The notes under the pieces: model-generated
The model's input: the letters and a program-made list of their open reading frames with translations, nothing else
Databases searched by the model: none
Told to the model about the DNA's origin: nothing
In this document: positions 301-29,139 of the stretch, one piece after another
Position numbering within the stretch: the first letter of the stretch is position 1
Layout of the letters: each line of letters starts with the position of its first letter
Position numbers and translations under genes: made by a program
Assembly (NCBI GenBank): GCA_020205615.1
Contig: CM035151.1
Coordinates: 43,396,977 to 43,460,976 of the forward strand
Direction of reading: 5' to 3'
DNA from: Panax quinquefolius
Taxonomy: Eukaryota > Streptophyta > Magnoliopsida > Apiales > Araliaceae
Length of the DNA stretch: 64,000 bases

Positions 301-1367
301 CAAAAATCCATTTGCAGTTTCATATATTCTATTATACTCAGTTGGTTAAAGTTTTGGCTTCTATACTCCATGAAATTAGTAGAATATCCTAGATATTTGC
401 GCTTCATCCAGTATCTTTTCATGGAAATATTCTTCTGAGCATTCTTGAATTTTACTCCACAAAGCAGTATCATGTTGACAATTTGGACGTTTTTGATTTC
501 TGGATAAATTAAATTATAAATCTTTAAAATTTATCTTGAACTTGTTTTATTGAATTATTATGTCATTGTCATCATCCTCATGCTTATATTGTGATTAAAT
601 TCATCTTTGGCTTACGTACATAGATGGACTTGGTATGATTATGACCAGGGATTATTCGGTATAATTATGACCGTAATGTGACGAATGATGTGGTGAAAGT
701 CCTCATTGGCCTATAGTTCATTGATGGACAGTTGTTGGTATGATTATGACCATGGATTATTCGGTATAATCACGACCATTGACGATTACATGAATATCCT
801 TGGCCGTGATGCATGGATGATTCGATTTTATTTATTAAGCTGAGTCTCAGCGATAAAGTTGATGATTTTTTTTTTAAATCGTAGAAGATAGTAGATTTTA
901 TGCTCTACTTGACTCTTCTAATGGATTGCTTATTCATTGCAGATTGTTGATCTAAAACTTGTTGTCTATTATATTCTATCAGTTTTTATACTATTGAAGG
1001 CTAAGGATAATTTATTCTGCATTATCTTAGTTATAATATTTCTTACTGGGCTAGTTGAGTTCACCCTTTCTTTCACTGTTCTCTTTAGGAAATGAGAATA
1101 TAGCTGGGACAAGTCGGGGAACGGATTGACGGTCCAGATGATTGTTTTAGTAGTCCTCACTATTCTATAAAATAGTGTGACAATAAATGTAATGAGGACT
1201 CCATTGAGTGTTGATATTGTCTAGATGATAATATTCTTATTAAAATTCTTATATTATGTTTTGTCATATTTTACACGACTGTTGTATAATTAAGTTGTAT
1301 TTGAATTTTGTACCATGTATTTGACGACTCAAGATGGGTGACGTATACCTATTTTGGGGGCGTCACA
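1..1367 (+). repeat. 3' part of the 5' LTR of Tekay-like element T1
   Basis: This is the downstream part of a long LTR whose start lies outside the window. It ends in GGGGGCGTCACA, followed two bases later by a primer-binding site. The segment is nearly identical to the matching part of the 5' LTR of element D (about 39610-40977) in the same order: array of ~73 bp units, the GGTATGATTATGACC / GGTATAATCATGACC repeats, and the ACTGGGCTAGTTGAG stretch. Short ORFs here are chance frames in LTR sequence; the one at 232-438 recurs in D only because the LTR is shared. Confidence 0.9.
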
Positions 1368-1369
1368 GT

Positions 1370-1381
1370 TGGTATCAAAGC
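1370..1381 (+). other. primer-binding site of T1
   Basis: TGGTATCAAAGC lies two bases after the LTR terminus CACA. It matches the initiator-Met tRNA primer site of plant LTR elements (TGGTATCAGAGC) at all but one base. It fixes the 5' LTR / internal boundary. Confidence 0.85.
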
Positions 1382-1554
1382 TTAGGGATATGATCCATGG
1401 CTGAGATGTGAGACAAGAACTAGGAGGGGAGAGACGGGGAATTCCTTCGCTAGTATGACTTACCTAAGTTTATTTGGTATTTAATTGGTTGGTCAGAGTA
1501 TAGGGATAATATGTGATATGTTAATTAACCCTTGTTTTGTAACAGTGTTTGAAA

Positions 1555-2781
1555 ATGGCATCTGAAAATGTTGACATCAGCAATGAAGCACATGAGACCG
1601 TTGAGTCACCAACGATCAATACCCAGGATAATGTGCAACAGGAAGATAATAATCCTCAGGTAAACAACAACACCGATCAGATGATGAACGATGGGATGAT
1701 CAGAGACTTTATGCAATTCATGCAACATCAGTCGAGAGAGACTCCTGTTCAAAATGTAGGTGGAAACACTGGCAACCCACGGATGGTCACTGCTAAGCAG
1801 TTCAAGGAGCTAGGACCGCCAGAGTTTTTGGGAAAGCCAGAACCACTTAAGGCGGAGACGTGGTTAAAGTAGATCACCAAGATATTTGATGTCTTGGGAT
1901 GCTCCGAGGAGCAAAAGGTTCCCTTCGCCACCTTTATGTTGCGTGAAGAGGCAGATTACTGGTGGGAATCTGTAAAACATACCCAGCCTGACGCACTCAA
2001 GATGTCTTGGGAGAAGTTCCAAGAGTTGTTCAACGACAAGTACTTTCCCGAAAGTATTCGTCACATAAAGGAGGTGGAATTCATCAAGTTGGAGCAAAAT
2101 AATATGACAGTGTCGCAATATGAGGCTAAATTTACGGAGTTATCCCGGTTTGCTTCCCATTTGGTCGATAATGAGGAGCGATTGATGCGAATGTTTCTAA
2201 GAGGTTTGAAATCCGATATGAGTCAATATCTCATTTCTCACAAACTTTGTTTTTATTCAGATGTTGTGAATAAGGCTCAGTTATTGGAGCGTGATAATGA
2301 GTCAGCACAACCAAAAGGCAACGACCAACAACACAATAATAATCATACCGGTGGCAACGACCATCAGAACAATGATAACCATCGTGAGGGAAATTATCAT
2401 GCCAAGAATGGTAACCACTTCGGTGGTAATCATGGCCAAGATAATAGAGGTGGAAATTTCAAGAAGAGAAGATTCAATAATGACGGAAAGACGTCAGCAC
2501 CAGCACCTATTGTTAAGGAAGGAGAACGACCGCCAGTTGTATACTTCAAATGCGGAGGGGAGGGACATATCAGTCCAAACTGCGTGATGCATTCCAAAGC
2601 ATGTTACAATTATGGAAAAGAAGGTCACCTAGCCCGATTTTGTCGTGCACCAAAGTCAAGTCCAGCTGGGACGGTGGCACCAAAGGCGGATATGGACAAA
2701 ACAAAGTCGGTGGTTTCAGGGAGAGCATTTTTCGTGACTTCTCAAAAAGAGAGTAACCCGAACGAAGTTAGCACGGATTAG
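1555..2781 (+). pseudogene. gag: gag (capsid/nucleocapsid) of T1, with internal stop
   Basis: This is the Gag polyprotein of a Tekay-like gypsy element, which would form the virus-like particle and bind the RNA. The ATG at 1555 starts an acidic, Asn/Gln-rich N terminus, followed by the capsid-type retrotrans_gag region (residues like DYWWESV, FNDKYFP, LEQNNMTVSQYEAKF). An Asn/His/Gly-rich linker follows, then two CX2CX4HX4C-type knuckles near 2540-2640. In each knuckle one Cys is Tyr (VYFKC and CYNYG), so neither is intact. TAG at 1870-1872 interrupts the frame; element C has Gln (CAA) there. The frame ends at TAG 2779-2781, directly followed in the same frame by a protease remnant. D carries the same internal stop. 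Confidence 0.85.
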
Positions 2782-3040: not shown

Positions 3041-3349
3041 GCGTGAAATCGAATTTTGTATTGAACCCAGTACAAAACTCATTTCTCAAACCCTTAAATA
3101 TTTCTTCACCTAGAACGAACATAACATGCACCAAGGACGTTGGCTCGAGCTGTTGAAGATTACGACTATACCATTAAATATCATCGTGGAAGAGTGAACG
3201 TGGTAGCTGACGCGTTGAGTAGAAGATCGTATGCATTTACGAGTGCGATGTTGTTAACACAAAAACTCATTTTGTATAACTTACAAATGATGAAGATAGA
3301 GTTAAAGACTCTAGGGACCCACGTGAAGATAGCGAATATACGATTTGAA
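3041..3349 (+). pseudogene. fused RT-start / RNase H-end remnant of T1 (pol deleted)
   Basis: Only scraps of pol remain. Around 3041-3090 is the stretch just before the RT fingers (REIEFCIEP...TKLIS). It is joined at about 3095-3125 to the end of RNase H, read as HQGRWLELLK and, after a frame change, [24 protein letters not shown] (3155-3230). The RT palm with its catalytic Asp pair and most of RNase H are missing. D has the same fusion at the same place, so it is inherited rather than local damage. The element breaks off at 3349. Confidence 0.75.
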
Positions 3350-3657
3350 TAACTCCTTATACTATAGTTATTTGTCACACTTTATTTAATCAAGCTTTCA
3401 TATTTAATTTAATTAATTCAAATAACCATTAATTAAATAATTCATTTAATCACATAACTCAATACAAATAATTAACCATCAACTTGAAATATCAATATAA
3501 TAATAATTTTCTTAACTCATTAATTATTTATTTACAACATAAATAATTAATCAATTCAAATTAAACAAATATTTATTTAGCAATAAATGCACCAATTAAA
3601 TATTTATATAATTCAATAAATATTTAAAATTACAATTTAAATTTTCGAATTGTTACA
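3348..3657 (-). repeat. truncated 3' LTR of element A
   Basis: On the minus strand the LTR begins TGTAACAATTCG at 3657 and stays alignable to the complete LTR at 9128-12193 for about 310 bases. It stops at the AATAACTCC word (11885 in the full copy). The rest is missing; T1 sequence begins at once, with two shared bases (AA) at the joint. The sequence is very AT-rich. Confidence 0.9.
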
Positions 3658-3755
3658 TCCTTCCCTCCTTACAAGGATTCTGTCCCCAGAATCACTACTC
3701 AAACAAACAAATCGTCACATTCTTCCCTTCTTACAAAGATTCTGTCCCCAGAATC
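3658..3755 (-). other. duplicated polypurine tract with hairpins
   Basis: On the minus strand AAGGAGGGAAGGA lies directly before the 3' LTR start at 3657 and is the plus-strand primer. About 60 bases further in is a second purine run, AAGAAGGGAAGAA. Each is preceded by the perfect hairpin GATTCTG-GGGA-CAGAATC (3676-3693 and 3738-3755). The block is a short tandem duplication of hairpin plus purine tract. Confidence 0.8.
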
Positions 3756-3766
3756 GAAGACACAGT

Positions 3767-4113
3767 TTAAACAAATAACTCAGGGTAATTCTTTATCATA
3801 TCAGCTTCGAGTTCCCACGTAGCCTCTTCGACATTGTGGTTCCTCCATATCACCTTCACAGAAGGTATCACTTTATTCCTGAGCACTTGTTCTTTCCTGT
3901 CGACTATCTAGATATGAATCTCTTCATAGGACAAGTCTTTCTCAAATTGCAATGGTTCGTACTCAATTATGTGCTTGTAATCAGATTTATACGGTCATAA
4001 CACCGACACGTGAAAAACATTATGAATGTTTTGCAATTCTGGAGGTAAAGCTACCTCGTAAGCTACCTCTCCAACTTTCCTCAGCACTTCAAAGGGTCCA
4101 ATAAACCTCGGAC
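3767..4113 (-). pseudogene. integrase C-terminal tail and chromodomain of A
   Basis: After a frame change near 4114 the integrase continues through RFIGPFEVL and [12 protein letters not shown] (the GPF/Y-type module), then NVFHVSVL. It ends in a chromodomain-like stretch with VIWRNHNVEEATWE and MIKNYPELF before a stop. Chromodomains of this group guide integration to heterochromatin marks. Two in-frame stops lie inside: a TGA where the family has Leu-Arg-Lys-Tyr, and a TAG before IVDRKEQVL. Confidence 0.8.
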
Positions 4114-5637
4114 TTAGTTTCCCCTTTTTACCAAATCGAATTTCCCCTTCCAAGGATAAACTTTTAGGAATACGTAATTTCCTATGTCAAATGCACGATC
4201 TTGTCTGTGTTGATCAGCATATTTCTTTTTTCTATCTTGAGCAGCTATCAATCTTGTTCTGATGAGTTGGACAACCTCAGCAGTTTGTTGTACTAGTTCT
4301 GGTCCTAACAGTTGACGTTCACCGACTTCGTCCCAGCACAGTGGAGTTCTGCACTTCCTGCCGTATAATGCTTCGTAAGGCGGTATGCCGATGCTAGCAT
4401 GGTAACTATTATTGTAGGCAAATTCCACCAACGGTAATTGTTCATCCCAGCTTCCTTTGAAATCCATGACGCATACTCTCAGCATATCTTCTAATGTCTG
4501 AATCGTTCGTTCGCTTTGGCCATCTGTTTGCGGATGATATGCCATACTCATTCGCAATTGCGTTCCCATACATTCTTGTAGTCTCTTCCAGAAGTTTGAT
4601 GTGAACCTCGGATCTCCGTCTGACACAATTGACACTGGAACCCCATGTCTTGTAACGATCTCTTTAACATATAGTTTTGCCAGCTGATCAAGATTGAATC
4701 TAATCTTTATTGGCAAAAAGTGTGCAGATTTTGTCAACCTGTCCACTATCACCCAAATCGCATTGTATCCTTTCTGAGTTGTTGGAAGACCTACCACAAA
4801 ATCCATTGTGATATGCTCCCATTTCCATTCTGGTATCTCCAACGGTTGAAGTAACCCGCTTGGTCTTTGATGTTTGGCCTTGACTCTCTGACATGTTAAG
4901 CACTTTGCAACGCATTTTGCAACGTCTCTTTTCATATTTGGCCACCAAAAATGTCGTCGCAAATCTTGATACATCTTCATACTTCCTGGATGAATCGAAT
5001 ATCTCGAGTTATGAGCTTTGGTCAATATGTCTTCTTTAATATCTGGTACTGCTGGAACCCATATTCGTCCTTCAAATCTCAGCATCCCCTCGGTATCAAC
5101 TTTGTACTTTATTTCTTTTCCCCCGACCACACCTTCTCTTATTTTTCTGCATTCCTCATCCTGCAGTTGAGCATTCTTCACTTTGTCCACCAAAGTTTGA
5201 CTGGCTTCCATCTGGTACAATTTCTCATCAGATTCTTTTGGAAATTTGATTTCCAACTCTAACCTTGACATTGCTGTAATAAGCTCCTCCTTATCAGTTA
5301 ACAACATCAACTTTTCCCTGCCTTTCCTACTCAAGGCATCTGCAACCACGTTTGCTTTGCCTGGATGATAAAAGATCTCACAATCATAATCTTTTATCAG
5401 TTCCATCCATCTTCTTTGACGCATGTTCAGGTCCTTCTGTGTGAAAATATACTTCAGACTTTTATGGTCTGTGTAAATCTCACATTTCTCTCCGTAGAGA
5501 TAGTGTCTCCATATCTTCAGAGCAAACACAACCGCCGCCAACTCTAAATCATGAGTCGGATACCCTTTTTTGTAGTCTTTCAATTGTGTTGATGCATACG
5601 CGATGACTTTCCCATTCTGCATAAGAACACAACCCAA
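4114..5637 (-). pseudogene. RNase H and integrase of A
   Basis: This is the longest open frame in the window (507 codons). It starts inside RNase H just after its first catalytic Asp, runs through the [10 protein letters not shown] region and VVADALSRK, then the integrase HHCC zinc region ([26 protein letters not shown]). The catalytic core follows: Asp in MDFVVGLP, Asp in IVSDGDPRF, Glu in [11 protein letters not shown], so the DDE triad is present. It would remove the RNA template and insert the cDNA. The frame joins the upstream RT frame (5580-6287) by a shift at a GGGTT triplication near 5630 and ends near 4114, where another shift leads to the chromodomain. Confidence 0.92.
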
Positions 5638-6287
5638 CCCAACCCTTTGTGTGAGGCATCACTATACACCATAAAATTTCCTGTATTGTCTGGTAATGTC
5701 AACACAGGTGCCACACTTAGATTCTTCTTCAAATCTTGAAAACTTTCTTCACATTTCTCCGTCCACATGAATTTTATAGCTTTCCTTGTCAAATTTGTTA
5801 ACGGAGTGGCTATCTTAGAAAAATCTTGAATGAATCTTCTATAATAACCAGCCAGTCCCAAGAAACTCCTCACTTCTGACGGTGTTCTTAGTTGTTCCCA
5901 ATTGATTACAGCTTCCATTTTTGATGGATCCACTGAAATCCCATCCTTGTCAATAACATGACCCAAAAATTGTACACGGTCGAGCCAAAATTCGCACTTA
6001 GAGAATTTTGCGTATAGCTTTTCCTTTCTTAGTGTTTCCAATGTCAAACGTAAGTGTTCCACGTGTTCTTCTTGAGTCTTGGAATACACTAGAATGTCGT
6101 CGATAAATACCACTACAAACTTGTCTAAGAATGGTTTAAACACCACATTCATCGATCCATGAACGCAAAGCGGGGTGCATTGGTTAAACCAAAAGACATC
6201 ACCGTAAACTCGTAATCTCCATACAGGAGTTCGAATGCCGATTCGTGGTATATCGTCCTTCCTCACTTTCAACCTGGTGATACCCAC
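5580..6287 (-). pseudogene. reverse transcriptase palm/thumb and RNase H start of A
   Basis: The frame encodes the RT core with FIDDILVYS (catalytic Asp pair), [29 protein letters not shown] in the thumb, then the RNase H start [13 protein letters not shown]. It would copy the element RNA into cDNA. The first ~30 codons are out of register with the family; the RT fingers lie in another frame (6269-6592). At the 3' end the minus strand reads GGGTTGGGTTGGGTTG, one GGGTT unit more than the protein needs, shifting the rest of RNase H into the 4114-5637 frame. Confidence 0.88.
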
Positions 6288-6592
6288 TTCTCAAATCTAT
6301 TTTGAAAAGTATTTGGCACCTTCAATTGGTCAAACAAGTCATCTATTCTTGGCAGCGGGTATTTATTTTTAATAGTGACTTTGTTTAACTCCTCATAATC
6401 AATGCAAAGACGATTGATCCGTCCTTCTTCTTCACAAATAAAGCTGGCGCCCCCCGCGGCGATACGCTTGGTTGAATATATTTCTTGTCCGGTGACTCTT
6501 GCAATTGTACCATCGGTTCCTTCATTTCTACTAGGAGCCATTACAGACGGGGCCTTCGATATCGGTCTTGTTTCCGGCACTAAGTCAATCAC
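6269..6592 (-). pseudogene. reverse transcriptase fingers of A
   Basis: This segment contains the RT N-terminal landmarks [13 protein letters not shown], then after a scrambled stretch [42 protein letters not shown]. It is followed by a frame change into 5580-6287. The middle ([14 protein letters not shown]...) no longer matches the expected KELKxQLxELL region, which suggests small indels on either side. Confidence 0.82.
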
Positions 6593-6803
6593 TTAATTCA
6601 ATTTCTGTCGTCGAAGGAAGTCTGGCAAATCCTCTGAAACACGTCTTGAATTCTCTCACTACCGGTATTTCTTCTAGTTTTACCCCCTTGTTTTGAGTAT
6701 CGACTATGTAAGCTAAATAGCCCACACAACCTTGACTCAACAATTTCTTGGCTGCGTAGTCGTGGACATTTCATTTGTTCAGGCGATTTGCTACCATAAA
6801 ATA
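6593..6803 (-). pseudogene. protease-RT linker of A, broken
   Basis: Between protease and RT the minus strand still shows the conserved linker words (QGCVGYLAYIVD, EEIPVVREF, then a degraded 'F..DLPGLPP' region) in shifting frames with a stop. It carries no catalytic motif and is a bridge in the original polyprotein. Confidence 0.6.
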
Positions 6804-7367
6804 CTACCTTTCGATTTGAGTCATAAGGTTTTTACATTTCTTTTGGCGGTCAATTCTCTCTCCGTATTTGAATGTACCAATCCATTCCAAAATTACATCA
6901 AATTCCTCGAGTCTAATCGGAATCAAATCTACCAACAAGATATTCTCCTTAATGTTCACCCTACAGTTCTTGTATACGAATCTAACAGAGATTACTTCCT
7001 TATTCGCAATTTCTATGTTCAAAGGAAAATTCAGTTCTTCTCTAGGTAATTCTAACCTCTTAGCAAATTCATCAGATATAAACGAACAAGTAGCACCCGA
7101 ATCAAATAATACATAAGCATTTATATCATTGATTGGGATAATACCTGACACCACATCTTTTGATTGCACAATATCCTGCACAATCATGTTGAAGGTTTTA
7201 GCTGTGGGTTTGATTGATGCTGCAGGTCCTGCAATGGCCCATGTACCTCCATTGTTACCTCCATTGCTTCTGGTTGTCACTCCATCCCTCTTCTTAGGAC
7301 ATTCACGAGCAAAGTGATCCTTGGATCCGCACGTGAAGCACGCATTCTTCTTCGGTTCAAAGTGCAA
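6804..7367 (-). pseudogene. nucleocapsid zinc knuckle and aspartic protease of A
   Basis: The frame opens with an intact CCHC knuckle (CFTCGSKDHFAREC), then a Gly/Asn linker. The retropepsin domain follows with the active-site motif VLFDSGATCSFIS at about residue 90 and a downstream VILEWIGTF stretch where the family has VILGMDWL. It would cleave the Gag-Pol polyprotein. The frame ends in a stop at 6804 shortly after this second hydrophobic element. A degraded second knuckle (FGPEGHIAPNC, with a Cys lost) lies just upstream at 7277-7465. The copy of this region in B is at 12194-12650. Confidence 0.88.
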
Positions 7368-8291
7368 TTTGGGGCGATGTGGCCCTCCGGCCCAAATGTA
7401 GTAAACTTCGTTTCCCCATCAAGCACGCACCCTTGTGAAATTTCCGCATGTCGCACATGCTTCAAACTTTTGTTTTTTGGTTACCTCACGGTGTCAAAGA
7501 CCACGCGTTCCGTTCCACTTCCACTTCATGCCGTTGTTGTTGTTGTTGTTATTGTTTCCACCGCTACCACTCCCATTCTTAGTCTCATTCTCATTCCTCT
7601 TCTTTTTTTATTCCTGGTTGAACTTTGTCACCGCCGCTCGCCTCCACCTTCGCCGAGTAACGCTTTCTCCATCACCATTAGAACGTCTTCAATCGGAGCA
7701 GGGGATACCCTCGCATACGATCGGGGCTTGATCCTGTTCAAATCTTTTCGCTTTACGCCGTCTGTCTTGACGATATGGCGCAAACCTCGCCAATTCGTTG
7801 AATTTCGCGGCATTCTCAGATACCGTCATCGTTCCCTGCTTTAATTCCAGAAACTGCACTTCTAGCTGACTCTTCGAACTATCCGGGAAATAAGTCTCGA
7901 AGAACAACTCCTTAAACCTATCCCGGTCATCACTCCCCGGCCCTTCACGAGTTTTATTGGCTGCCGCCACCAATAACTAGCTTCGCTTTCAACATGAATG
8001 TTGCGAAAGTAGTCTTCTGATCATCCTTTACCCTAGCGACATCGAACACCTTTTCTATCTCCATAATCCAGGTCTGTGCTTCGACTGGATTCATAGACCC
8101 ATGGAATTCAGGTGGTCCAATCGCCTTGAAATCCTTAAACGTTGTACCATGTTTTTGTGGTTGATTCGCGCAACGCTCACCGTCGATGAGAGTGTCACTA
8201 GTTGTTGAAGCAGGGGTTACTGGTCAACATTGTCGTTATTGGTAGTTCTCTCATTGTTTCTCTGTCGGGGTGGTTCACGTCTGGGAGGCAT
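7368..8291 (-). pseudogene. gag: gag capsid of A, frameshifted
   Basis: ATG at 8291-8289 begins MPPRREPPRQRNN, the usual Tekay-like Gag start, shared in form with B (13563). Conserved capsid words appear in several frames: FKDFKAIGPPEF, VEAQTWIMEIEKVFDVAR, then in the 7689-7973 frame FKELFFETYFPDSSKSQLEVQFLELKQGTMTV. Stops and shifts separate them. The B copy stays in one frame over the same stretch, so the shifts are specific to A. Confidence 0.8.
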
Positions 8292-8581
8292 TTTTTGTTA
8301 AAACAAAACATCTATTAGACTATTACTCAGCTTCTTTAAGTATTTTCTAATTAACTTGCCTCCATAAAAGAAATAGCCATATAACGCATAACACTTTGAA
8401 TAAAGTAACAACTTTTATTTATTCAAAACCTTTTTGGAAAACATAAAACAATAGCATCACTACTATCTACATTACTTTCCTGAACTACAAAAGTTTCAGG
8501 ACAACATCATAGTCATATCCCATAGGTTGCATAACACTTGGGATTTATAATTTATTTAACATTTCACTCATCGTACTACAT

Positions 8582-9010
8582 CTACGATGTTCTATTAAGA
8601 TACTTCTTAGCCCTATCACGTTCTTCCTCCATGACTCAAAACATTGTTCTGCGATCTAACACGAATGATGGCAGCGTCTCAAACTGAATCGGATATCCCA
8701 TGACCTGATCTTGAGCTCGATTAATTGCGGTGTTAAATACTTTATCCATCTCTTCCATCTTCATCCTCTTTGCTTGTGTGTCTCTTACTGCTAATCTGGT
8801 TCGTTGAAAAGCTTCCTCGTAAGCATCTTCAGCTCTTGCCCTCTTAGCGACTTCTTCTTCTCTCGACTTGCCCTTGGTTAAAGCAACCATCTCGATCAAT
8901 TGTTCTTTCTCTCCTTCAGTCTGTATTAGTTTCTCCTCGGCATTTGTCAGTCGTTCCTCATGATCCTAGATCTCGCCGTCTTTTTGTGTCATTGCAGTTT
9001 CTCCTTCAGT
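8582..9010 (-). pseudogene. leader ORF ('ORF0') of A, coiled-coil, 5'-truncated
   Basis: Between primer site and gag the minus strand has a charged, Glu/Lys/Arg-rich heptad-like sequence: QKDGEI, a TAG, DHEERLTNAEEKLIQ, then AKRARAEDAYEEAF, MEEMDKVFNTAINRAQDQV and YPIQFETL. It reaches a stop near 8636 and a final piece MEEERDRAKKYLN ending at 8582. The same order of words is found in B at 16455-19257. The N terminus present in B is missing here, because the region from about 9010 jumps to leader sequence. The TAG in EI-stop aligns with Gln (CAG) in B. I do not recognise a family; a coiled-coil protein made from the element leader is an inference. Confidence 0.6.
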
Positions 9011-9112
9011 GTTTTATTACTTCTTTCTTAAAACTCGATAAGAGTTATCTCCACTATCTTTTCAAAGGTTACTTCCTAAGGCTTTTCCCCCACCTAAGGT
9101 TCATAACCTAAA

Positions 9113-9124
9113 GCTTTGATACCA
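9113..9124 (-). other. primer-binding site of A
   Basis: Minus strand TGGTATCAAAGC lies three bases after the 5' LTR terminus GTGTCACA. It is of initiator-Met tRNA type. Confidence 0.85.
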
Positions 9125-9127
9125 ACT

Positions 9128-12100
9128 TGTGACACCCACAAATCCCGGTACTTCATTACCTCAAGATTTGGTGTTCATGTAATCAAAACATTCATTTCTA
9201 ACTACCCAATCATAATAGAATTGAATAATAAAAGAAAACCTGTCCATACAGGATTAAACTTAAATAAAAATTTCCCAGGTTATCTAACCTTTAACAAAAA
9301 TCATTCAAATGCAGAAAATTAAATAACTTCATTACAATCTTTAAATCAAATTCTGAAAGTAAACTATCAAAACTATTACAAGTCTTCAGTATTTATTCAT
9401 CTTTCATTTTCCCTTACTGGTACTAGGTACGTCACCCGTTTCAACTTTAGCTGTAAGAAATTTTACAGGCAAGAGTGAGCAAACAAAGCCCACTTGAAAT
9501 AACAATAAGTAAATCTTTAAACTTTTACATCAATTGCCAATATTAGGCTCAATAGAACTGAACAATATATTCTATTAACTTTCTGAAAATTATAACATTC
9601 ACTGAGGGTCTAATGACCACGAATCATGTCCACAATTATAAGTAATCTTTCAACTTTAACTTTAACAGTCATAAGACTATAAGGACTCCACGTACTTAGG
9701 GGGATCAACCCTTCGTACAATGTATTGTGCACAACCATTTCAACGCTAAGCGTAAACCTCTATTAAAAGAGTTGTTCATCTCAGTATTTAGAATACAAGT
9801 CCGCACCAAAGTAAGTTTGGTTTGGATAAGCTTTCAAGGAAATTTGAATTAAATCGAACATCAACTAAGGAGTAGTTGAATAAAACCAATAACACTATAC
9901 TATAGAATAATCGTGATTGAATCAATCATGGTAAACTAAAGTGATGCTTTAGGAATAATCTAATAGCATACCATTTGAATAACTATAGCATACCTTGCTT
10001 GAACAATACTAAGCCAAGGTTAATTAAAATTGAATACTAAACATGCATAGTAACTTGAACGATAGAAATGTTCGACATTAGTATATATATATATATAGTT
10101 GTGCATGCTAAACAACAAGTTAAATACAAGAATAACTTGCTCCAGAATAACTTACATTATTATATTATAATCGAATTGAAAACAGTACTTGAATTAACAA
10201 GATAATATATTAGAAAACTTGCTTAAAGATAGTTGCACAATTATAAAAGTAGAGTTAGAGAACTTGCCTCGTGCGTAGGTTAAACAATTACTATTCACGT
10301 TCACCCCAAGTCTTACACATACCATATGTATTGACAATACACATTAGTTACACTAACATTACCTTTATGAGTTACTTTATTACTCTTAGTATAGCTACTA
10401 ACTAAGTTTAAGTTTAAACAACATCACATCTTTCATGAACATTACTTTTTAGCTTTATCACAACTACTTAAGTGATCATGTCATTGCACCACATGCACAT
10501 TAACAACTTGATACAACATCCTATTACATGTCCAACATGTTATCTTTAAGTTATACTAATACACAAAGGGTTGCACTTGCATTCGTGCATCCCGACGCCC
10601 TCCGATTGGCTCCAAATACACAATAGTCCTAAAGATGGCCATTTTGACTACAGTTACATACCTCAAATTAAAAAACTGAAAGCATGAAAGTTGTAGGTCT
10701 ATTCGTCCTCATTCCTGATCATCTTGAATAAACTCAACCGGAGTTCAGATGAGAAAGTTATGGCCGTTTTACTACAGGAGAGTCAAAGCGCCCCAACTCG
10801 ATTAACTTTTTCCATGGCCGAGGTGGATCATGCGCCAAGCGATGATACCAGCGTCTGCGAGTTGCGAGTTCCGGGCTTGACGCGAAATTTGGAGTCAATG
10901 AAATTTGTGTTGGGCTACGAAACTCGTAAAAACCCAAACGACGAAGAACATAACAACTAAATTTTGTACTAAATGATACTGCTAACATCTAAATTTACAT
11001 GAACAACTAACATAATTTACCCATAATCATAACCAATTATTCAGATACTAATTAACAACGACTAAACCAAGATTTTAAAAACTTAAATTTTGAAAACACG
11101 GTTTAAAAAAAAAACTAAAACTCCATAGTTGATAACACAGTAAACACTGTGAATTCATTAGTAGACCAAAATACTCTATTCAAACTACGTTCCATTCGTA
11201 TCTCAATGAAATACCATAAACAAACTTCAATTTACAGTTTCACAACCAAATTGGCCATTAAAATTGGTACTTACATGATTACATATAGAAACATACCAAG
11301 AATACATATACTAACAAATTTTCTTCCTACTGTAGATGAAATTTGCATGCGATTATTGTTTAAACACCATATCTAATCACTATAAACATGTATAACCCCC
11401 ATAACTTAGTTACATAACAACAATTCGAAAGAAAAACTAGAACTCACAGAGCATAGAAGAAATAGAATTCACAGAGTATAACAAAGCTTCACCGAAATAC
11501 TCGTAAATAATATCAAAGTGGTAGAACATACCTTCAATTAGCTTATACAATCTTTGTTAGTTGAAGACCAATCTCCCTCAATCTCTCAAACTCTTTTCTC
11601 AATTCTCTTTTTTCTATTCTCTGAACTCTCTCAAAACCCAAAGCAACTAGTATGCGTAATATAAAAAAAAAAACAAAACCGATATGGCCTTAATAATAGC
11701 CATCATTAGTTAACCAAAATAACGATACATTATATTTATTATTTATTTTATTTTATTTATTTTATAAATTAGAAATATCAAAAGCCATAAGGCTTGTTTG
11801 GCAAACCATTTAAATTTTAAAGAATTTATATCCTTAAGCATTGTTTGGGTAAAACTAGATTAAAACTACTTTAATTTATTTTTAATAACTCCTTATACTA
11901 TAGTTATTTGTCACACTTTATTTAATCAAGCTTTCATATTTAATTTAATTAATTCAAATAACCATTAATTAAATAATTCATTTAATCACATAACTCAATA
12001 CAAATAATTAACCATCAACTTGAAATATCAATATAATAATATTTTTCTTAACTCATTAATTATTTATTTAGAACATAAATAATTAATCAATTCAAATTAA

Positions 12101-12193
12101 ACAAATATTTATTTAGCAATAATTGCACCAATTAAATATTTATATAATTCAATAAATATTTAAAATTACAATTTAAATTTTTGGATTGTTACA
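9128..12193 (-). repeat. complete 5' LTR of element A
   Basis: Read on the minus strand the LTR runs from TGTAACAATCC (12193) to GGTGTCACA (9128), about 3066 bases, with TG...CA ends. The first 310 bases match the truncated 3' LTR at 3348-3657. The region 10685-10772 carries a stretch also found in the unrelated LTR of F. A short AT dinucleotide run lies at about 10083-10097. I see no gene: ORFs at 10724-10988 and 11149-11376 are chance frames. Confidence 0.9.
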
Positions 12194-13563
12194 TAATTGG
12201 TATCAAATCCACTATCATCTCATGGCCCTTTATATCCACTCTACAGTTCTTGTATATAAGCCTAACAGGAATCACTTCCCTATTTATGATCTCTATACTT
12301 AAAGGGAAATCTAATTGTTCTTGAGGTGAATCTAAAATTCCTAGAAAAATCATCGGATATAAATGAACAAGTAGCACCCGAATCAAATAACACATAAGCA
12401 TTAATACCATTGATCGGAATGATGCTTGGCACCACATCCTTTGACTGCACAACATCTTGCATGGTCATATTGAAAGTTCTGGCAGTGGGTCGGTTTGATT
12501 GCATTGGTCCAGTGATAGTCAATGTACCACCATTGTTGTTTCCCTTGCCTCCACTTGCACCTCCCGCTATCTTCCTTGGGCAATCACGAGCCATGTGATC
12601 CTTTGACCCGCAAGTGAAACAGGCTCCTCCCTTCTTCGGGCTAAAACAATTTATTGCAATGTGACCTTCCTGGCCATAATTAAAACACACTCGCTTACCC
12701 TTTAGGCACACACCAGTGTGGTTTTTCCCACAACTAGTACAAACTTCAAACTTCTTCTTTTGCTGACTTCCTTGTTGTCTGCCCGTATTTGAATTTTCAT
12801 TCCACTTCCTCTTCTGGTTATTACTTCCACTATTGCTTCCACCAGCCTTGTTTTCACCCTCATTCTTCCTCTTCTTTTGTTCTAGATTATACTTAGTTAA
12901 AGCATTGCTTCCACCTTCCGCGATAATTGCCTTTTCCAATACTGCTGCAAATGTATTTAACTGGAACATTGAAACCTTGCTATACAGCCAAGGCTTCAAC
13001 CCTTGTTCAAACCTTCTCGCCTAATGCTCATCGGTATTGACTTGGTACGGAGCAAACCTTTCCAGCTCATTAAACTTCGCTGCATACTTTGGCACATACA
13101 AGGTTCTTTGTTTTAGTTCTAAAAATTGAACTTCCATCTATTTGTGGGAACTCGTTAGAAAGTACATCTTGAAAAACCTTTCTTTAAACTTATCCCACGC
13201 TATAATTCCCTGTCCCCCACAAACCTTATTCGTCTGCCACCAATAACTAGCTTCAGACTTCAATATAAACGTTGTGAATGCGGTTTTCTGATCCTCATTG
13301 ACTCTGGCAACGTCAAAAACCTTCTCCATTTCCATGATCCAGGTTTAGGCTTCAACTAGATTCATAGACCCTTGAAACTCACGCGGTCCAACCGCTTTGA
13401 AGTCCTAAAAAGTCGTAACTTAAGCTTGCGGCTGATTCGCAAGTGCTCCTGTTAACAAGGTCAACAACTGCTGAACTGGGTTAGTGTTGGCATCGTTATT
13501 ATTGTTGTTTATAGACCCCTCAACGTGTGGTTGTTTGCGTGGTTATCTTCTTTTAGGAGGCAT
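12194..13563 (-). pseudogene. gag: gag and protease start of B
   Basis: ATG at 13563-13561 begins MPPKRR. A single frame can be followed to about 12345 through FKAVGPREF, ASYWWQTNKV, FFKMYFL and VQFLELKQ. Three zinc knuckles follow: CTSCGKNHTGVC, CFNYGQEGHIAINC (one Cys is Tyr) and CFTCGSKDHMARDC. Then comes protease with VLFDSGATCSFIS. Six in-frame stops, all TAA or TAG, begin at 13545, 13422, 13407, 13347, 13140 and 13023, with no frameshift between them. A one-base gain in a T run near 12345 shifts the remaining protease (LDFPLSIEI to VDLIPI), which is then cut by the LTR of A. Confidence 0.88.
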
Positions 13564-13640
13564 TTTCTGTTTAAAATATACGCTTATTAGATCACTACTC
13601 AATTCCTTGAATATTTAAAGTTTAACTTAAACATTCTAAG

Positions 13641-16232
13641 TGTGAGACCCCAAATTTTATGAAATAAAAGTGTTCAATTTTTCTATTTTGGTGAATAGTT
13701 AAATTGATAAAAGTTTAAAGTTAAGGGTCATATTTTAAAAATTTTCAAAGTAGACAAGTTGTCATAAAATACCCGGTTACTATTCACGAGTTACTATTCA
13801 CCGAAATTACTATTCACTCTAGTATTGTTCACTCGAGTATTTGAGACACTTTTTGTGTCGGAGTTACTATTTACGAGTTACTATTCACAAGTTACTATTC
13901 ACCGAAATTACTATTCACTCTAGTATTGTTCACTTCGAGTATTTGGGAAACTTTTGTGTCGGAGTACTATTCACGAGTTACTATTCACCCGAACAAAATA
14001 TTTTATGAAAATACTACGGAAGTTTTACTGGTTGATCTTGTTGAACTACTCGGTAGTAAAAAAAGAATGTCGTGTGGTTGCATAGTAGCATTACCGGTAT
14101 TGATTATTGATATTTATGTGAGTCAGTCACTCGGTTTGATTCCATTATTGTCGATTAATAATATGAATTATTATAACGATGATGACGTTTTGTTTTATTC
14201 GTATTATTAACGTAATAAAAGCGAGTAACATCTTTTTATATAAAATAGAAAGTGATAATGACGTTTTGTTTTATTCGTAATAAAAGCGAAACATCTTTTT
14301 ATATAAAATAGAATACTTTATTAAAGTTATTCTATAAATAGAATATATTATATTTTATTTTGCATAGTGTGTTTTGCATAGTGTTGCATAGTGTTTTGCA
14401 TAGTAAAATGTTTTTATATAAATAGAATATATTATATTTTATTTAAAAGATTTTTCTTTAAATATGGACCATCGATTAAAGTAAATCAACTGGACCGTTC
14501 ATGGATTAATTACTATGCATTCTATTTTCCTATAAATAGAAGCTCATTCCTTCATTATTTTCTTACTTAATTCACTTTGAAACTCAGAGAGAGAAATTAT
14601 AGAGAGAAGCTATAGAGAAAAAATAGAGAGAGAAAGAAGAAGAGTATTACGGTACTTCACTACTTTGATATCCAAAGTGTCTTTTACGGTAAGGGATATT
14701 ATTTGTTGTATTCGTAAAGGGTGTTATTCTTTCTTCTTGAAGAGAACTTACATTATTCCATTCTATATTATTACATTGGAATAACTTCAGTAAAAGTGGT
14801 ATACCCTATACATGACCAGATACGCTGGCATACCCTATACTTGGTGAAATCCTTATATTATTCCATTCTTATTTATTCATTGGAATAACTTTTGTATCGT
14901 GGAATCCCCTATACTTGGTGATCTTCTTCATTATTCCATTTTTTATTATTACATTGGATTATCACATGCGTGTTTTTTACAAGGACCTAGTTCCATTGTT
15001 TATTATTCCGCATTTATTATTACATTTGAATATCACATGCGTGTGTTTTACACTAGGACGGTTCCATTGTTTATTATTCAAAGCATTTATTATTACTGTT
15101 GGATCATCCTGCCGGTGTGAATTTCACTTGACTCGGTTCCGTTATTATTATTATTCGTTGGAATAACTTGTCATGCTGAAATACCGCATGCATGGTGATT
15201 TCTTTTGTTATTCCATTCTTTATTATACCCGGTTGGTTAAAACTTGACTTCTATACTCCATGAAATTAGTAGAATATCTTTGATATTTGCGTTTCATCCA
15301 AAGATCTTTTCATGGAAATATTCTTACGATCATTCTTGAATTTTACTCTACAAAACAAAGATCATATTGACAATTTGGACGTTAATAATTCTCGGATAAA
15401 ATAATTCTTGAACTTGTTTTATTGAATTCTTATATCATTGTCATCATCCTCATGTTTATATTATGTTGAAAGTTATCTTTGGCTTACGTGCATAGATGAA
15501 CTTAGTATGATTATGACCGTGGTTCATTCGGTATAATCATGGCTTGATATAAATGATGTGACAAAAGTCCTCGATGGCCTGTAATGCGATGATGGATAGT
15601 TTTGGTATGATTATGACCGAGGGGTGATTCGGTATAGTCATGACCATTGATAATTTGATGAAAATCCTTGACCAGGTGGTACGGGGATGATTAGATATTG
15701 TGGTTTATTCATTAAAGCTGAGTCTTAGTGATAAAATTGATGAAAACCTTTTAAAACCTAAAAGATAGTAGACTTTATTTTCTACTTGACTCTTTTAATG
15801 GATTGATATTCATTGCAGATTAAACTGGTTGTCTATTGTATTTTATCGGTTTAACATTGTTGAAGACTATTGATAATTTATTACGCATTATCATAGTTAT
15901 AATATTTCTTCTTGAGCTAGTTGAGCTCACCCTTTCTTTTTTATTTCTTCGTGAAATGAGAATATAGCCGGGACGAGTCGGGAAAACGAGTGATGGTCCG
16001 AAGATAGCATTAGTAGTTCTCACTATTCTGTTAAATAGTGTGACAATAAATGCAATGAGGACTCCTTGAGTATGGATATTGTCTATATGACAATATTCCT
16101 ATTAGAACTCTCAGTTTATGTATTGTCGTATGTTACACGACAGATGTATAATTAAGTTTGTATTTGAATTTATGTACCATGTAAGTGGCGACCCAAGATG
16201 GGTGACGTGTACCTAATTTTGGGGGCGTCACA
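13641..16232 (+). mobile_element. solo LTR L1 of the Tekay-like family
   Basis: A 2592-base LTR runs from TGTGAGACCCCAAATTTTATG to GGGGGCGTCACA, flanked by the 5-bp duplication CTAAG (13636-13640 and 16233-16237). No primer site or coding region is present, so it is a solo LTR left by recombination between the two LTRs of an element inserted in the leader of B. It contains GTTACTATTCAC repeats (13775-13990), a ~75 bp tandem duplication (about 14173-14310), TTGCATAGTG repeats (14361-14406), a TATA box and diverged ~73 bp units (14750-15235). Confidence 0.93.
14531..14538 (+). promoter_or_regulatory. predicted LTR promoter TATA box (L1)
   Basis: TATAAATA lies in TTTTCC-TATAAATAG-AAGCTCATTC. 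The same context recurs in the LTRs of D and L0, with close relatives in C and L2. Transcription would start about 30 bases downstream, placing the tandem arrays in the transcribed leader. Confidence 0.6.
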
Positions 16233-16454
16233 CTAAGGTTAAAACTTAACACATAACATTTCAATAAACTATGATATTTTATTCATTCATAACTTTTGGA
16301 ACATAATAAGGATATCATCTCTGCTATCTACATCAACTTTCCTGAACTTGAAAAGTTTCAGGATAACATACTCATCTTACCCCTTTATTTATCTCAATAT
16401 AAGGGATTTATAATTTATTTAACACATATTTAATCACACAACTTATTACTCTTC

Positions 16455-16591
16455 CTATCTTGGCATATTAAGACGTCGAGAGGCTTCTCTACGCTCTTCT
16501 TCCATAATACGATATATCATGTACCATGACAAGTCTTCAAATTGAGATGGGTAATAAAAGACTTGATCATGGACCCTATTAATCGCATAAT
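16455..16591 (-). pseudogene. C-terminal part of leader ORF of B
   Basis: The ORF interrupted by F resumes here: RVHDQVFYYPSQFEDLSWY, then YRIMEEERREASRRLNMPR and TAG at 16457-16455. It aligns with A (RAQDQV, YPIQFETL, MEEERDRAKKYLN). The frame matches the upstream half (18646-19257) only after a small shift near 18670, where the longer upstream frame ends in QTRRLR and a TGA. Confidence 0.6.
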
Positions 16592-18633
16592 TGATAAGTA
16601 GGTTTTATATCTACTTATTCGGTATCTGTTACTTGAATTATTTACTCAATCTCATGTTTCTTAGTTACTTTTCATGCATTTTGTGTTCGTCTTGTAGATT
16701 ATATGCGTGGGAGCTGAAATCGCAAAGAAACGCAATTCAGACATCATTTGGGCTTTCATGTTTATTTCATGTTCTTGGCTTGGAACTTGGATTATATTAT
16801 AGAGCTTCTTCTTAGCTTTCCGTAACATCTTGAATCATTCCAATCGGAGTTCGGATGCAAGAGTTATGATCTTTGTACCAACGGACGTCGAACTTCACTA
16901 TTTTGGGTGTCCATTTACATAACATCCACTTCAGAGATAATTTCAACATTACTCCAGTCCTTATTTTGAAAAACTCAAAACATAAAAGTTATAGATCTAC
17001 GTCTCCTCTTTCCGTAACATCTTGAATCATCAAAATCGAAGTTCAGATGAAGAAGTTATGGTCATTTTCCCAAAGGACGTACAGAAAGCGAAAAAGGACC
17101 CCGTCGGTGAACTTTCTCTTCACAAAACCCCGCGGGAAGTGGGTACTACTGGAAAACAGATCCCTAGCCCATCGGGGCGGGCTCTTTACGCGCATAAAAC
17201 TTAGTTTTTGTCCAAATTTGAGTCCAAGAAGGATTGGTTCGATCCGATTGACTCAAGGACTTCCAAGATGACTTAAAGACATATAAAGAGACTTATAAAA
17301 TGAGGAGAAACACAAGGATTAGAGGGGAGATATTAGATTAGAGAGAGGATTCCATTAGATTAGATTATAGTAGATTAGGACCAAAACTCTAGTTCTTATG
17401 AGATTTGGAGATTGAAGCAACTTGGAGACCATTGATGATTCAAAGTAGGAGCAAGGAGAAAGCGTCAAATCTATAGACAATAGATTATATCTTCTCATCT
17501 TCTTCTATTTTTGTCTTTTAATGTGTATTCAATTGTGGATTTTTAGTTTTAATTCAATGAACTAATTCTTTGTTTGAGATTACAATGGATCTTATTGTGT
17601 AGTTTATTTTACTATGCTTCGCTATCAATTATTATGTTCTATTGTGAGGATTGTCTATTGTGATTTGGACTTAATTATTTAATTGATTGGCCATCAATTA
17701 CCGTGATAATCTATATGAACTCGAGAGATGAAGTATTTATTTAGATCTTATCATGATAGCATGTGTTTGTGATTTCTGCATAGATGGAATTCATGATTCG
17801 TGTTTAGGATAGAGATATGTCTTTATGCCATATGTAATCTTATAGAGAACTTATGCTTTAAATCCTTTTTAATTGTAATTTACATAGAGATATAGTGGAT
17901 TAGTTAATTAGGGTGTCTTGCTTAATTCTATCATCTGTGGATTTAAGTGAGTATGGGTTTTATGCATCGAGATATGGTTTTATCTGCTTTAGTGTTCTTG
18001 ATTAACAATTCATGATAGAGAATAATTGATGAGAAGTGTGTTAATTTAAATGAAGCAATAAGTGAAGTTGTGATCTTAAATCTCCATAATCTTAATTTCA
18101 CTAGTGGAATTTAATAGTAGTTTAATTATAAATTGAAACTCATTCGTTTAAATAAGATTGAATTGGTTACGGGTTAGTACTTGGTGATTCTTATTAAACA
18201 ATTCCTCATGGGAACGATACTCTACTTTCACTTTATTACTTGTTGACCACGTATACTTGCGTGTTGTGCATAATTAGAATTTATCCAACAAAATGTTTAA
18301 ATTAAGACTAATTTGATTGAAGCTAATATTGGCAAAAAAATATTAAACTAATTCCCCAGCAACGGCGCCCAAAACTTGTTGGGTAAAATCTAATTACGCA
18401 CAACACGCAAGTATACGTGGTCAACAAGTAATAAAGTGAATGTAGAGTATCGTTCCCACGAGGAATTGTTTAATAAAAAATCACCAAGTACTAACCCGTA
18501 ACCAACTCAATCTTATTTAAACGAATGAATTTCAAATTATATAAATTAAATTATTTAATTACACTAATTTTAATTACCACTAATTAAAAATTAGTTTACG
18601 GAGATTTAAAAACACAACTTCACTTATTGCTAT
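16592..18633 (+). mobile_element. F: Athila/Tat-type LTR plus inverted LTR fragment
   Basis: A forward LTR runs from TGATAAGTAGG (16592) to TTATCCAACA (18290). It is followed by only ~86 bases of internal sequence, then the 3' end of the same LTR in inverse orientation (18377 to about 18633). The inverse copy matches 18036-18290 reversed, so the segment can fold back on itself. The primer site in the spacer faces the inverted LTR. A 16-bp direct repeat, CTATTAATCGCATAAT (16576-16591 and 18630-18645), flanks the insert, longer than the usual 5 bp. No coding sequence survives. It splits ORF0 of B. Confidence 0.85.
18353..18370 (-). other. primer-binding site of F (Athila/Tat type)
   Basis: Minus strand GGGCGCCGTTGCTGGGGA lies six bases after the end of the inverted LTR at 18377. 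It closely matches the TGGCGCCGTTGCCGGGGA-type site reported for Athila/Tat elements (tRNA-Asp type). Confidence 0.8.
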
Positions 18634-18645
18634 TAATCGCATAAT

Positions 18646-19257
18646 AAAAAGCATAATCCATTTCATTCATCTTAGCCTTCTTGTCTGAACCTTGGCTTCA
18701 GCACGATCTGCACATTGAGTAGCCTTCATCCAAGCGTCTTCTGCTCTCGCACGCTTAGCTGACTCCTCCTTCAAGTCATCTTTTAGCTTTTCAACTTTAG
18801 TCTTCATCTTCTCATTCTCAGCCAATAGCTCCTCTTGATGACCCTCTATGTGAACTAGGTTCCATTCCGTGTTCCCAAGTCGTGAGTCGAGTTCCTGAAT
18901 CTCCACATCCTTCTGCTCCATAGTAGCCTGACGTGTATCAGTCAGCTCCTTCAGCTCCTCAACCTTATCTTGTAATTCTATATTACGATTATACAATTCA
19001 TCATACATCTCAGATGATATGGAGTTTGGTGGAAACTCCACATGATCATCTTCCTCATCCTCCACCTCTATCTCCTCAGAGTCCTTCTCATCAGGATTAG
19101 ACACAGGCTCATTCCCCTGTCCTTCATCAGTAACCAACAGAGAAGGCTTCCTCTGGATTAACTTCTCCCAAATAACATGGACATCTCGGGGCTATTCATC
19201 TCTAGGTACCCGAGGTATCTCTTCCCTAGCTTGACTAGATCCTTCAACATTAGACAT
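18646..19257 (-). pseudogene. N-terminal and central part of leader ORF ('ORF0') of B
   Basis: ATG at 19257-19255 begins MSNVEGSSQAREEIPRVPRDE, then a TAG. The frame then runs from 19198 to 18667 as an acidic segment (DEKDSEEIEVEDEEDD) followed by a long heptad-rich coiled coil (ELYNRNIELQDKVEELKEL, EIQELDSRL, EELLAENEKMKTKVEKL, AKRARAEDAW). After a small shift it continues MNEMDYAFYYAIN up to F and resumes at 16591. With F removed the product would be roughly 260 residues. It lies between primer site and gag, on the same strand. No family recognised. Confidence 0.65.
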
Positions 19258-28439: not shown

Positions 28440-28870
28440 ATGCGGTAATCCACGTAAACAGATCATTTCTATAAATTAATTAAGAATGAATACGAAGGGT
28501 CATTCACTATGCATGCGGTAGTCCGCGTAGACAGGTTATTCCAACAAAATAATAATGAATGAATACGAAGGGTCATTCACCATGCATGCGGTAGTCCGCG
28601 TAGACAGGTTATTCCAACAGAATAATAAAGAATGGAATAACATAAGAATTTCACCATGCATACGGTAGTCCTCATAGACAGGTTATTCCAACAGAATAAT
28701 AAAGAATGGAATAACAGAAGAATTTCACCATGCATATGGTAGTCCGCGTATACAGGTTATTCCAACAGAATTATAAAGAATGGAATAATAGAAGAATTTC
28801 ACCATGCATACGGTAGTCCACGTAGACAAGTTATTCCAACAGAATAAGAAAGAATGGAATAACAACCCTT
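28440..28870 (-). repeat. ~73 bp tandem array in L0
   Basis: About six units in inverse orientation have GTTATTCCAACAGAATAATAAAG, AATGGAATAAC and CACCATGCATxCGGTAGTCC words. They are the minus-strand counterpart of the arrays in T1 and D. Confidence 0.85.
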
Positions 28871-29139
28871 ACGAGTATTGAAAGAAAATAACTCTATTCA
28901 TGAAAACGAAAGAAATAATACTCTTTACGAATATTAAACGAAAATAATATTCATACGAATGTGAAAAATAATTTCTCTTCAGAATATAAAATAAATAATA
29001 CCCCTTACGAATATTAAACGAAAATAATATTCATACGAATACAAAAAATAATTTCTCTTCAGAATATGAAATAAATAATACCCTTTACGACTGTTGAACG
29101 AAAATAATATTCCTACAAATATTGAACGAAGATGATATT

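Follow-up and report, generated by a model that had tools for sequence, protein, structure and literature searches.

A 64,000-nucleotide (nt) stretch of Panax quinquefolius DNA (assembly GCA_020205615.1, contig CM035151.1, positions 43,396,977 to 43,460,976 of the forward strand; hereafter the window) contains two nested and decayed long terminal repeat (LTR) retrotransposons, A and B, both on the minus strand. Between the primer site and gag, and on the gag strand, each of them holds the remnant of one and the same gene, here called ORF0. This gene is very probably a genuine accessory gene of one Tekay/Del-like chromovirus branch in this genome, maintained under purifying selection, and where both were compared copy for copy, it is constrained about as strongly as gag.

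Both remnants are damaged. In A, ORF0 runs from an ATG at 8992 to a stop at 8582-8584 on the minus strand, with two in-frame stops inside, and lacks about 105 N-terminal residues present in B and in the long database relatives described below. In B, it starts with an ATG at 19257, meets a stop after 21 codons and is frameshifted near 18680. The short version of A was considered as the ancestral form and is disfavoured, as six of seven sister copies match residues 1-243 of the long relative P0006 unbroken; the seventh (L005) matches it in two pieces. A sequence-only reading made before this analysis had proposed that A and B share a glutamate/lysine-rich gene, and the words on which it relied were found in both elements in matching order. 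Its placement held in A for 8582-8992, whereas 8993-9010 is leader and not ORF0, and in B the two parts now cover 18632-19257 and 16455-16597.

In a protein-guided alignment, the A and B remnants are 45% identical in amino acids over 137 aligned codons, whereas the same base changes placed at random gave a mean identity of 25% and a maximum of 36%, with none of 5000 runs reaching 45%. As this alignment was protein-guided, the comparison was redone on nucleotides alone; the first, second and third codon positions (137 each) then showed 55, 44 and 87 differences, respectively (p 4e-7), compared to 35, 38 and 32 differences of 136-139 per position in the non-coding leader flanks (p 0.64). The corresponding values for gag/protease, aligned with protein guidance, were 36, 41 and 66 of 140 per codon position. 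At the nucleotide level ORF0 is the part in which A and B are least alike (55% identity), against 66% in gag/protease and 75% in the non-coding flanks.

In the own genome (3,565,155,480 bases in 821 contigs), ORF0 is present in at least several hundred copies. An A-type query (P0006) produced at least 149 scored matches among 31,136 first-look candidates, a query of the P0009 type at least 149 rows among 29,913 (one place giving two rows), and a B-type query at least 150 scored matches, the window piece included, among 25,772. Among the 149 rows listed for P0009, 28 had no stop, and several begin at residue 10-32; as P0006 extends past the natural stop at residue 244, stop counts made with that query include the normal end in many rows. 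Base-by-base reading of 38 loci, 8 picked by DNA (including the window's own) and 30 by protein, revealed seven that were open through residue 243; therefore, open ORF0 frames exist. When 27 DNA-picked loci were considered, 22 matched more than 200 residues, 17 of these in one piece, and 3 were open. A search with the ORF0-gag spacer alone listed 40 places, 24 of them absent from an ORF0 list; of these 24, 12 were taken and all 12 carry ORF0 sequence, some of it partial or in several frames and one copy fully open. Where the primer site was found (36 loci), the ORF0 ATG lies 195-234 nt behind it, mostly 203-204.

Selection was assayed as the ratio of nonsynonymous to synonymous divergence (dN/dS), with gag from the same loci as the control. 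In the protein-picked loci the ratio was 0.21 for ORF0 (30 copies; bootstrap over copies, 0.19-0.23) and 0.23 for gag (29 copies; 0.21-0.27). In the DNA-picked loci without the window's own, it was 0.49 for ORF0 (27 copies; bootstrap over the 17 full-length one-frame copies, 0.39-0.56) and 0.44 for gag (26 copies; 0.36-0.50). A third subfamily (P0009-type) showed an ORF0 ratio of 0.24 in eight copies, four of them without stops. With a rising proportion of synonymous differences (pS), the ratio declines from 0.45 to 0.26 in ORF0 and, at first, from 0.62 to 0.31 in gag, as would be expected if neutral decay after insertion dilutes the selection acting in active lineages.

Some of the data weigh against constraint of this kind. 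Close copies gave weak ratios, as in the first eight DNA-picked loci, with 0.62 for ORF0 (7 copies, the window's having been dropped by a length filter) and 0.55 and 0.57 for two pieces of gag (8 copies); the gag ratio climbs back to 0.47 in the bin with pS above 0.5; the protein-picked ORF0 copies are biased to low dN; and most ORF0 copies, 31 of 38, are broken. Gag, which was not used for picking, nearly equals the ORF0 ratio in the protein-picked loci. Unlike between A and B, ORF0 is not the least alike part among genome copies: synonymous differences were 0.34 in gag vs. 0.15 in ORF0 (DNA-picked) and 0.36 vs. 0.28 (protein-picked), in loci that had been chosen on ORF0. The sequence-only reading had suggested past coding constraint, which is borne out by the third-position excess, by an identity above the random maximum and by a dN/dS near that of gag. 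It had also named two outcomes that would speak against it, an ORF0 ratio near 1 beside a constrained gag and a family mostly devoid of the frame, and neither was found, the spacer-picked loci all having ORF0 even though so many copies are broken.

The subfamilies are unevenly distributed over contigs C1-C24, which take up nearly all ORF0 matches. Among the matches listed for each query, 132 of 133 A-type rows fall on C1, 10, 12, 14-17, 19-22 and 24, with 16 more on small contigs, and 133 of 137 P0009-type rows fall on the same twelve contigs, with 12 on small contigs. Of the 138 B-type rows, 104 are located on the remaining twelve contigs (C2-9, 11, 13, 18 and 23), again with 12 more on small contigs. 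This split over two chromosome sets of twelve looks like subgenome-specific amplification and would fit an allotetraploid. Panax ginseng is described as an allotetraploid (2n = 48, 3.6 Gb) with PgDel elements, of which PgDel2 labels half of the chromosomes in tetraploid Panax (PMC5567358, PMC6181221).

Relatives of the protein were sought in 5.8 billion proteins with the B piece, the A piece and a profile (best 7992 candidates scored), which detected 1, 4 and 11 sequences, respectively, the 11 (P0001-P0011) including the former five. None carries a name or a Pfam domain. Four are long, with 244-257 amino acids (P0006, 254; P0009, 257; P0010, 247; P0007, 244), an isoelectric point (pI) of 4.2-4.6 and 3.5-4.5% proline. 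P0006, P0009 and P0010 start with M(S/T)NVGE and P0007 about 25 residues further in; P0006 runs on beyond the usual stop, and many genome copies end naturally at residue 244. The common plan consists of an acidic stretch, a helical glutamate/lysine-rich core, in which two of the three subfamilies have (A/T)KRARAEDA, and, at the C-terminus, a module similar to YPIQFE.LPS..LDRRTM.R.M.EER.

AlphaFold2 models (13 sequences) for two subfamilies agreed on this plan, with a low-confidence N-terminus, a long helix (72-206 or 92-220) for the most part with a predicted local distance difference test (pLDDT) value of more than 90, and another helix near the C-terminus (221-251 or 235-255); as the predicted template modelling score (pTM) was only 0.31-0.32, the relative placement of the helices means nothing. 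The N-terminus is acidic and by prediction disordered, and the C-terminal module is conserved. A hydrophobic periodicity of 3.5 residues was reached by 0, 1 and 2 of 2000 shuffles for P0006, P0007 and P0009, respectively, so that the long heptad-type helix, proposed earlier from the DNA, is supported at about 130 predicted residues and by periodicity in three of the four proteins tested. As a coiled coil, the form predicted for it, this helix would span about 19 nm. Two results count against this picture: in P0010 the heptad periodicity is not significant (equalled by 351 of 2000 shuffles), and a Foldseek search with the first model gave no hit at E <= 0.001, a lone helix making matches uninformative. 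No Pfam family was above cut-off for ORF0 proteins in complete tables (E <= 1, E <= 0.1), and a third table had below-cut-off matches only among the 25 of 51 families listed. The PHROGs search gave weak matches only (best E 0.0055), a sequence search of the PDB with P0002 gave no match, and no ORF0 relative was confirmed in viral or prokaryote contigs.

The order gag, protease, reverse transcriptase, RNase H and integrase expected of a Tekay/Del chromovirus is present in A. On its minus strand, Pfam detected a zinc knuckle, RVP_2, RVT_1, RT_RNaseH, Integrase_H2C2 and a below-cut-off rve in that order, together with SH3_Tf2-1 at 3998-4120 (75 bits). A piece between stops at 3770-3907 resembles the chromodomain PF00385 (E 6.4e-5, 23.2 bits, below the cut-off of 25.1). 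As in Tekay-type 5' extra open reading frames (ORFs), ORF0 lies on the gag strand, is present in most copies and is under purifying selection.

The complete order in A is 5' LTR, primer site, ORF0 remnant, 290-nt spacer, gag, broken pol and truncated 3' LTR, and the placed features of the window are listed in Table 1. The insertion that divides ORF0 in B contains internal inverted repeats (18102-18291 / 18376-18566). The 16-nt word on its two sides is unusually long, and inside it there is a primer-site-like word, GGCGCCGTTGCTGGGG, which we take to be of the Tat/Athila type. The solo LTR within the B leader belongs to a C-like family, and the LTR of element C is 80% like it. Element C has about 173 nt between its primer site (1370) and gag ATG (1555), leaving no room for ORF0, and no ORF0 match was detected in its leader; related elements with and without ORF0 therefore sit side by side in the window. 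At 28502-29124, direct repeats recur at intervals of 74 and 80 bp in an LTR-like stretch.

Table 1. Features placed in the window (positions in nt from its first letter).
Feature	Position	Strand	Remarks
A 5' LTR	9128..12193	-	about 3.07 kb; ends taken from sequence
A primer binding site TGGTATCAAAGC	9113..9124	-	from sequence
A ORF0 remnant	8582..8992	-	N-terminally deleted; two in-frame stops
A ORF0-gag spacer	8292..8581	-	contains TCCTGAA...TTCAGGA repeat
A gag-pol	3770..8291	-	frames broken; gag ATG at 8291
A truncated 3' LTR	3344..3658	-	98.1% identity to A 5' LTR over 315 bp
B LTR	from 19499 rightward	-	end at 19499 placed
B ORF0, N-terminal and coiled-coil part	18632..19257	-	early stop; frameshift near 18680
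B ORF0, C-terminal part past insertion	16455..16597	-	holds the C-terminus
Insertion dividing B ORF0	about 16598..18643		about 2 kb; 16-nt word common to both sides
Solo LTR between B ORF0 and B gag	13641..16232		CTAAG on both flanks
B gag/protease	12189..13563	-	ends where A starts
Element C, gypsy-type relative	330-2781	+	at left end of window

The spacer between ORF0 and gag differs little among copies. In DNA-picked copies (324 pairs) it was 5.1% different, compared to synonymous differences of 15.1% in ORF0 and 34.1% in gag; in protein-picked copies (404 pairs) the values were 12.3%, 28.3% and 36.2%. Constraint on an RNA element may account for the low divergence, as may a mosaic make-up of the copies. 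Two repeats were detected in the spacer, a conserved TCCTGAA...TTCAGGA and ATAGCA...TGCTAT, and single-sequence folds of its RNA reached a z of only about -1.4. As the inner stem of the first repeat appeared altered in the third subfamily on visual reading, no covariation is claimed.

Translation of Gag must pass ORF0 and several upstream ATGs. The ORF0 ATG is preceded by TTTTGTTGTCAGG in B, slightly changed in A-type and P0009-type copies, and AG occupies positions -3/-2 in 53 of the 59 contexts that a start-codon pattern picked out among 78 loci; in a separate count, it stood within 8 nt in 47 of 49. Upstream of the gag ATG, CTAAT-like and T-rich sequence leads up to AACAG; of 42 such contexts, 36 have AG no more than 8 nt from the ATG and 39 have CTAAT-like words. 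In element C, GTTTTGTAACAG lies upstream of the gag ATG. Background ATGs had both AG and pyrimidines in 315 of 5984 cases (5.3%). This pattern suggests that the AG sites ahead of both ATGs resemble 3' splice sites, in which case alternatively spliced RNAs would supply ORF0 and gag through acceptors located just before each ATG. We regard such splicing as rather unlikely, since several points go against it: pyrimidine content is modest (9 of 14 reached at 8 of 49 ORF0 and 6 of 17 gag sites), the sites sit in an AT-rich leader, related copies do not count as independent cases and the AG pattern may stem from start-codon context, the own gag site of A is AACAA, and no splice donor was identified for the ORF0/gag leader.

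Regarding function, ORF0 might oligomerise through its long helix, and the oligomer would then serve the Gag particle or ribonucleoprotein (RNP) of the element as tether or assembly factor, in the manner of the virion-associated protein of caulimovirids (P3 of cauliflower mosaic virus, CaMV), which is about half as long as the ORF0 protein. This proposal, drawn by analogy, is tentative but a real possibility, and against it stands that a long helix is compatible with many roles. A somewhat doubtful alternative is that ORF0 builds no particle and is an RNA-fate or anti-silencing factor, coating or exporting unspliced element RNA, a task that CERV performs for Cer1, or countering host silencing. 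Acceptor-like sites before both ATGs would demand export of unspliced RNA, CERV carries a predicted leucine-zipper motif, can form rods and is preceded, at its predicted initiator ATG, by consensus acceptors (PMC10309623), and a role in RNA silencing was suggested for the sunflower 5'aORFs (PMC11728184), but the four long ORF0 proteins are acidic and no Pfam domain above cut-off was found in ORF0 proteins.

Very unlikely is a captured host gene or a detached N-terminal arm of Gag without function of its own: host proteins often hold acidic coiled coils and the Gag of Cer1 has an N-terminal coiled coil (PMC10309623), but none of the 11 relatives is named or has a Pfam domain, ORF0 has its own start and stop and about 290 nt of spacer before gag, and a constraint near that of gag disfavours lack of function. 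A chance frame in a stop-poor, glutamate/lysine-rich leader, to which low-complexity composition and the 31 broken copies would be favourable, is rejected as practically negligible by the random-placement test, the codon-position excess and dN/dS (0.21-0.49), as well as by the conserved N- and C-terminal modules and the four long relatives. Beyond the tether or assembly role itself, it is quite improbable, though conceivable, that the branch runs a retrovirus-like plan, with one leader, alternative 3' splice sites immediately ahead of the ORF0 and gag start codons and a coiled-coil accessory protein acting on the particle or genomic RNA, and that the 5' ORFs of grasses, sunflower and this plant, with their architecture of rod plus disorder, are one ancient, fast-diverging Tekay gene and not repeated captures.

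P3 of CaMV is a coiled-coil oligomer whose gene III precedes the coat protein gene IV (PMC5670102); it belongs to a plant reverse-transcribing virus, and its likeness to ORF0 is only one of working. No P3 match was found in the complete Pfam tables for ORF0 or in the PDB sequence search with P0002, a remote relation being possible. CERV, like ORF0 as proposed here, is an oligomerising extra protein encoded by an LTR retrotransposon, and acceptors lie before its ATG, but unlike ORF0 it has several exons and peptides in common with Gag (PMC10309623). A plant mobile domain is present in 57% of Ogre elements (PMC6317226); none was detected in the complete Pfam tables (E <= 1, E <= 0.1), the Ogre sequences themselves not being compared.

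The sequence-only reading had taken a leader protein to be something new for Tekay-type elements. This is not supported, as 5' extra ORFs of such elements have already been described in grasses (PMC3485330) and in sunflower (PMC11728184). In grasses they occur in Retrosat2, RIRE3 and RIRE8, with homologues in maize, sorghum and Brachypodium (PMC3485330). Like the present family, Retrosat2, RIRE3 and RIRE8 have the extra ORF between 5' LTR and gag and LTRs of about 3 kb, and the Retrosat2-type LTR ends, TGTCACACCC...GGGCGTGACA (PMC3485330), are similar to the ends of the solo LTR in the window, TGTGAGACCC...GGGCGTCACA. The ORF0 of those elements (Ka 0.257, Ks 1.65) is less conserved than ORF1 (Ka 0.078, Ks 1.33), yet its Ks far exceeds its Ka (PMC3485330). 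Grass ORF0s, of which that account found none outside grasses, are mostly modelled as hydrolase-like (PMC3485330), whereas a rod-like acidic helix is predicted here.

In sunflower, Tekay group 2 has a 5'aORF, also a 5' extra ORF, in 500 of 523 copies and its sister groups are without it; the protein has 402 amino acids, 15.9% proline, 92.5% disorder and a nuclear localisation signal (PMC11728184), compared to 244-257 amino acids, 3.5-4.5% proline and one helix of about 130 residues in the present ORF0. As described there, the sunflower 5' ORFs have no amino-acid similarity to those of grasses, and grass proteins were also modelled with long helices (PMC11728184). By these descriptions only, the ORF0 protein looks distinct from both. 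The REXdb survey, which asks whether any function exists for the extra ORFs of plant LTR retrotransposons, places Ty3/gypsy extra ORF proteins in 314 groups (PMC6317226), and the ORF0 family could therefore be among them. In this case, gag of each copy serves as the yardstick for selection on ORF0, which proves to be about as strong, so that a function, as a partner of Gag or of RNA, becomes testable. No coiled-coil 5' ORF of Tekay elements was recognised in the literature, most entries being judged by title or abstract opening; with 5' extra ORFs of Tekay elements already known, ORF0 is therefore a variation on an established class, and the Tekay clade gains with it a 5' extra protein of simple structure, apparently in a plant host that is neither grass nor sunflower.

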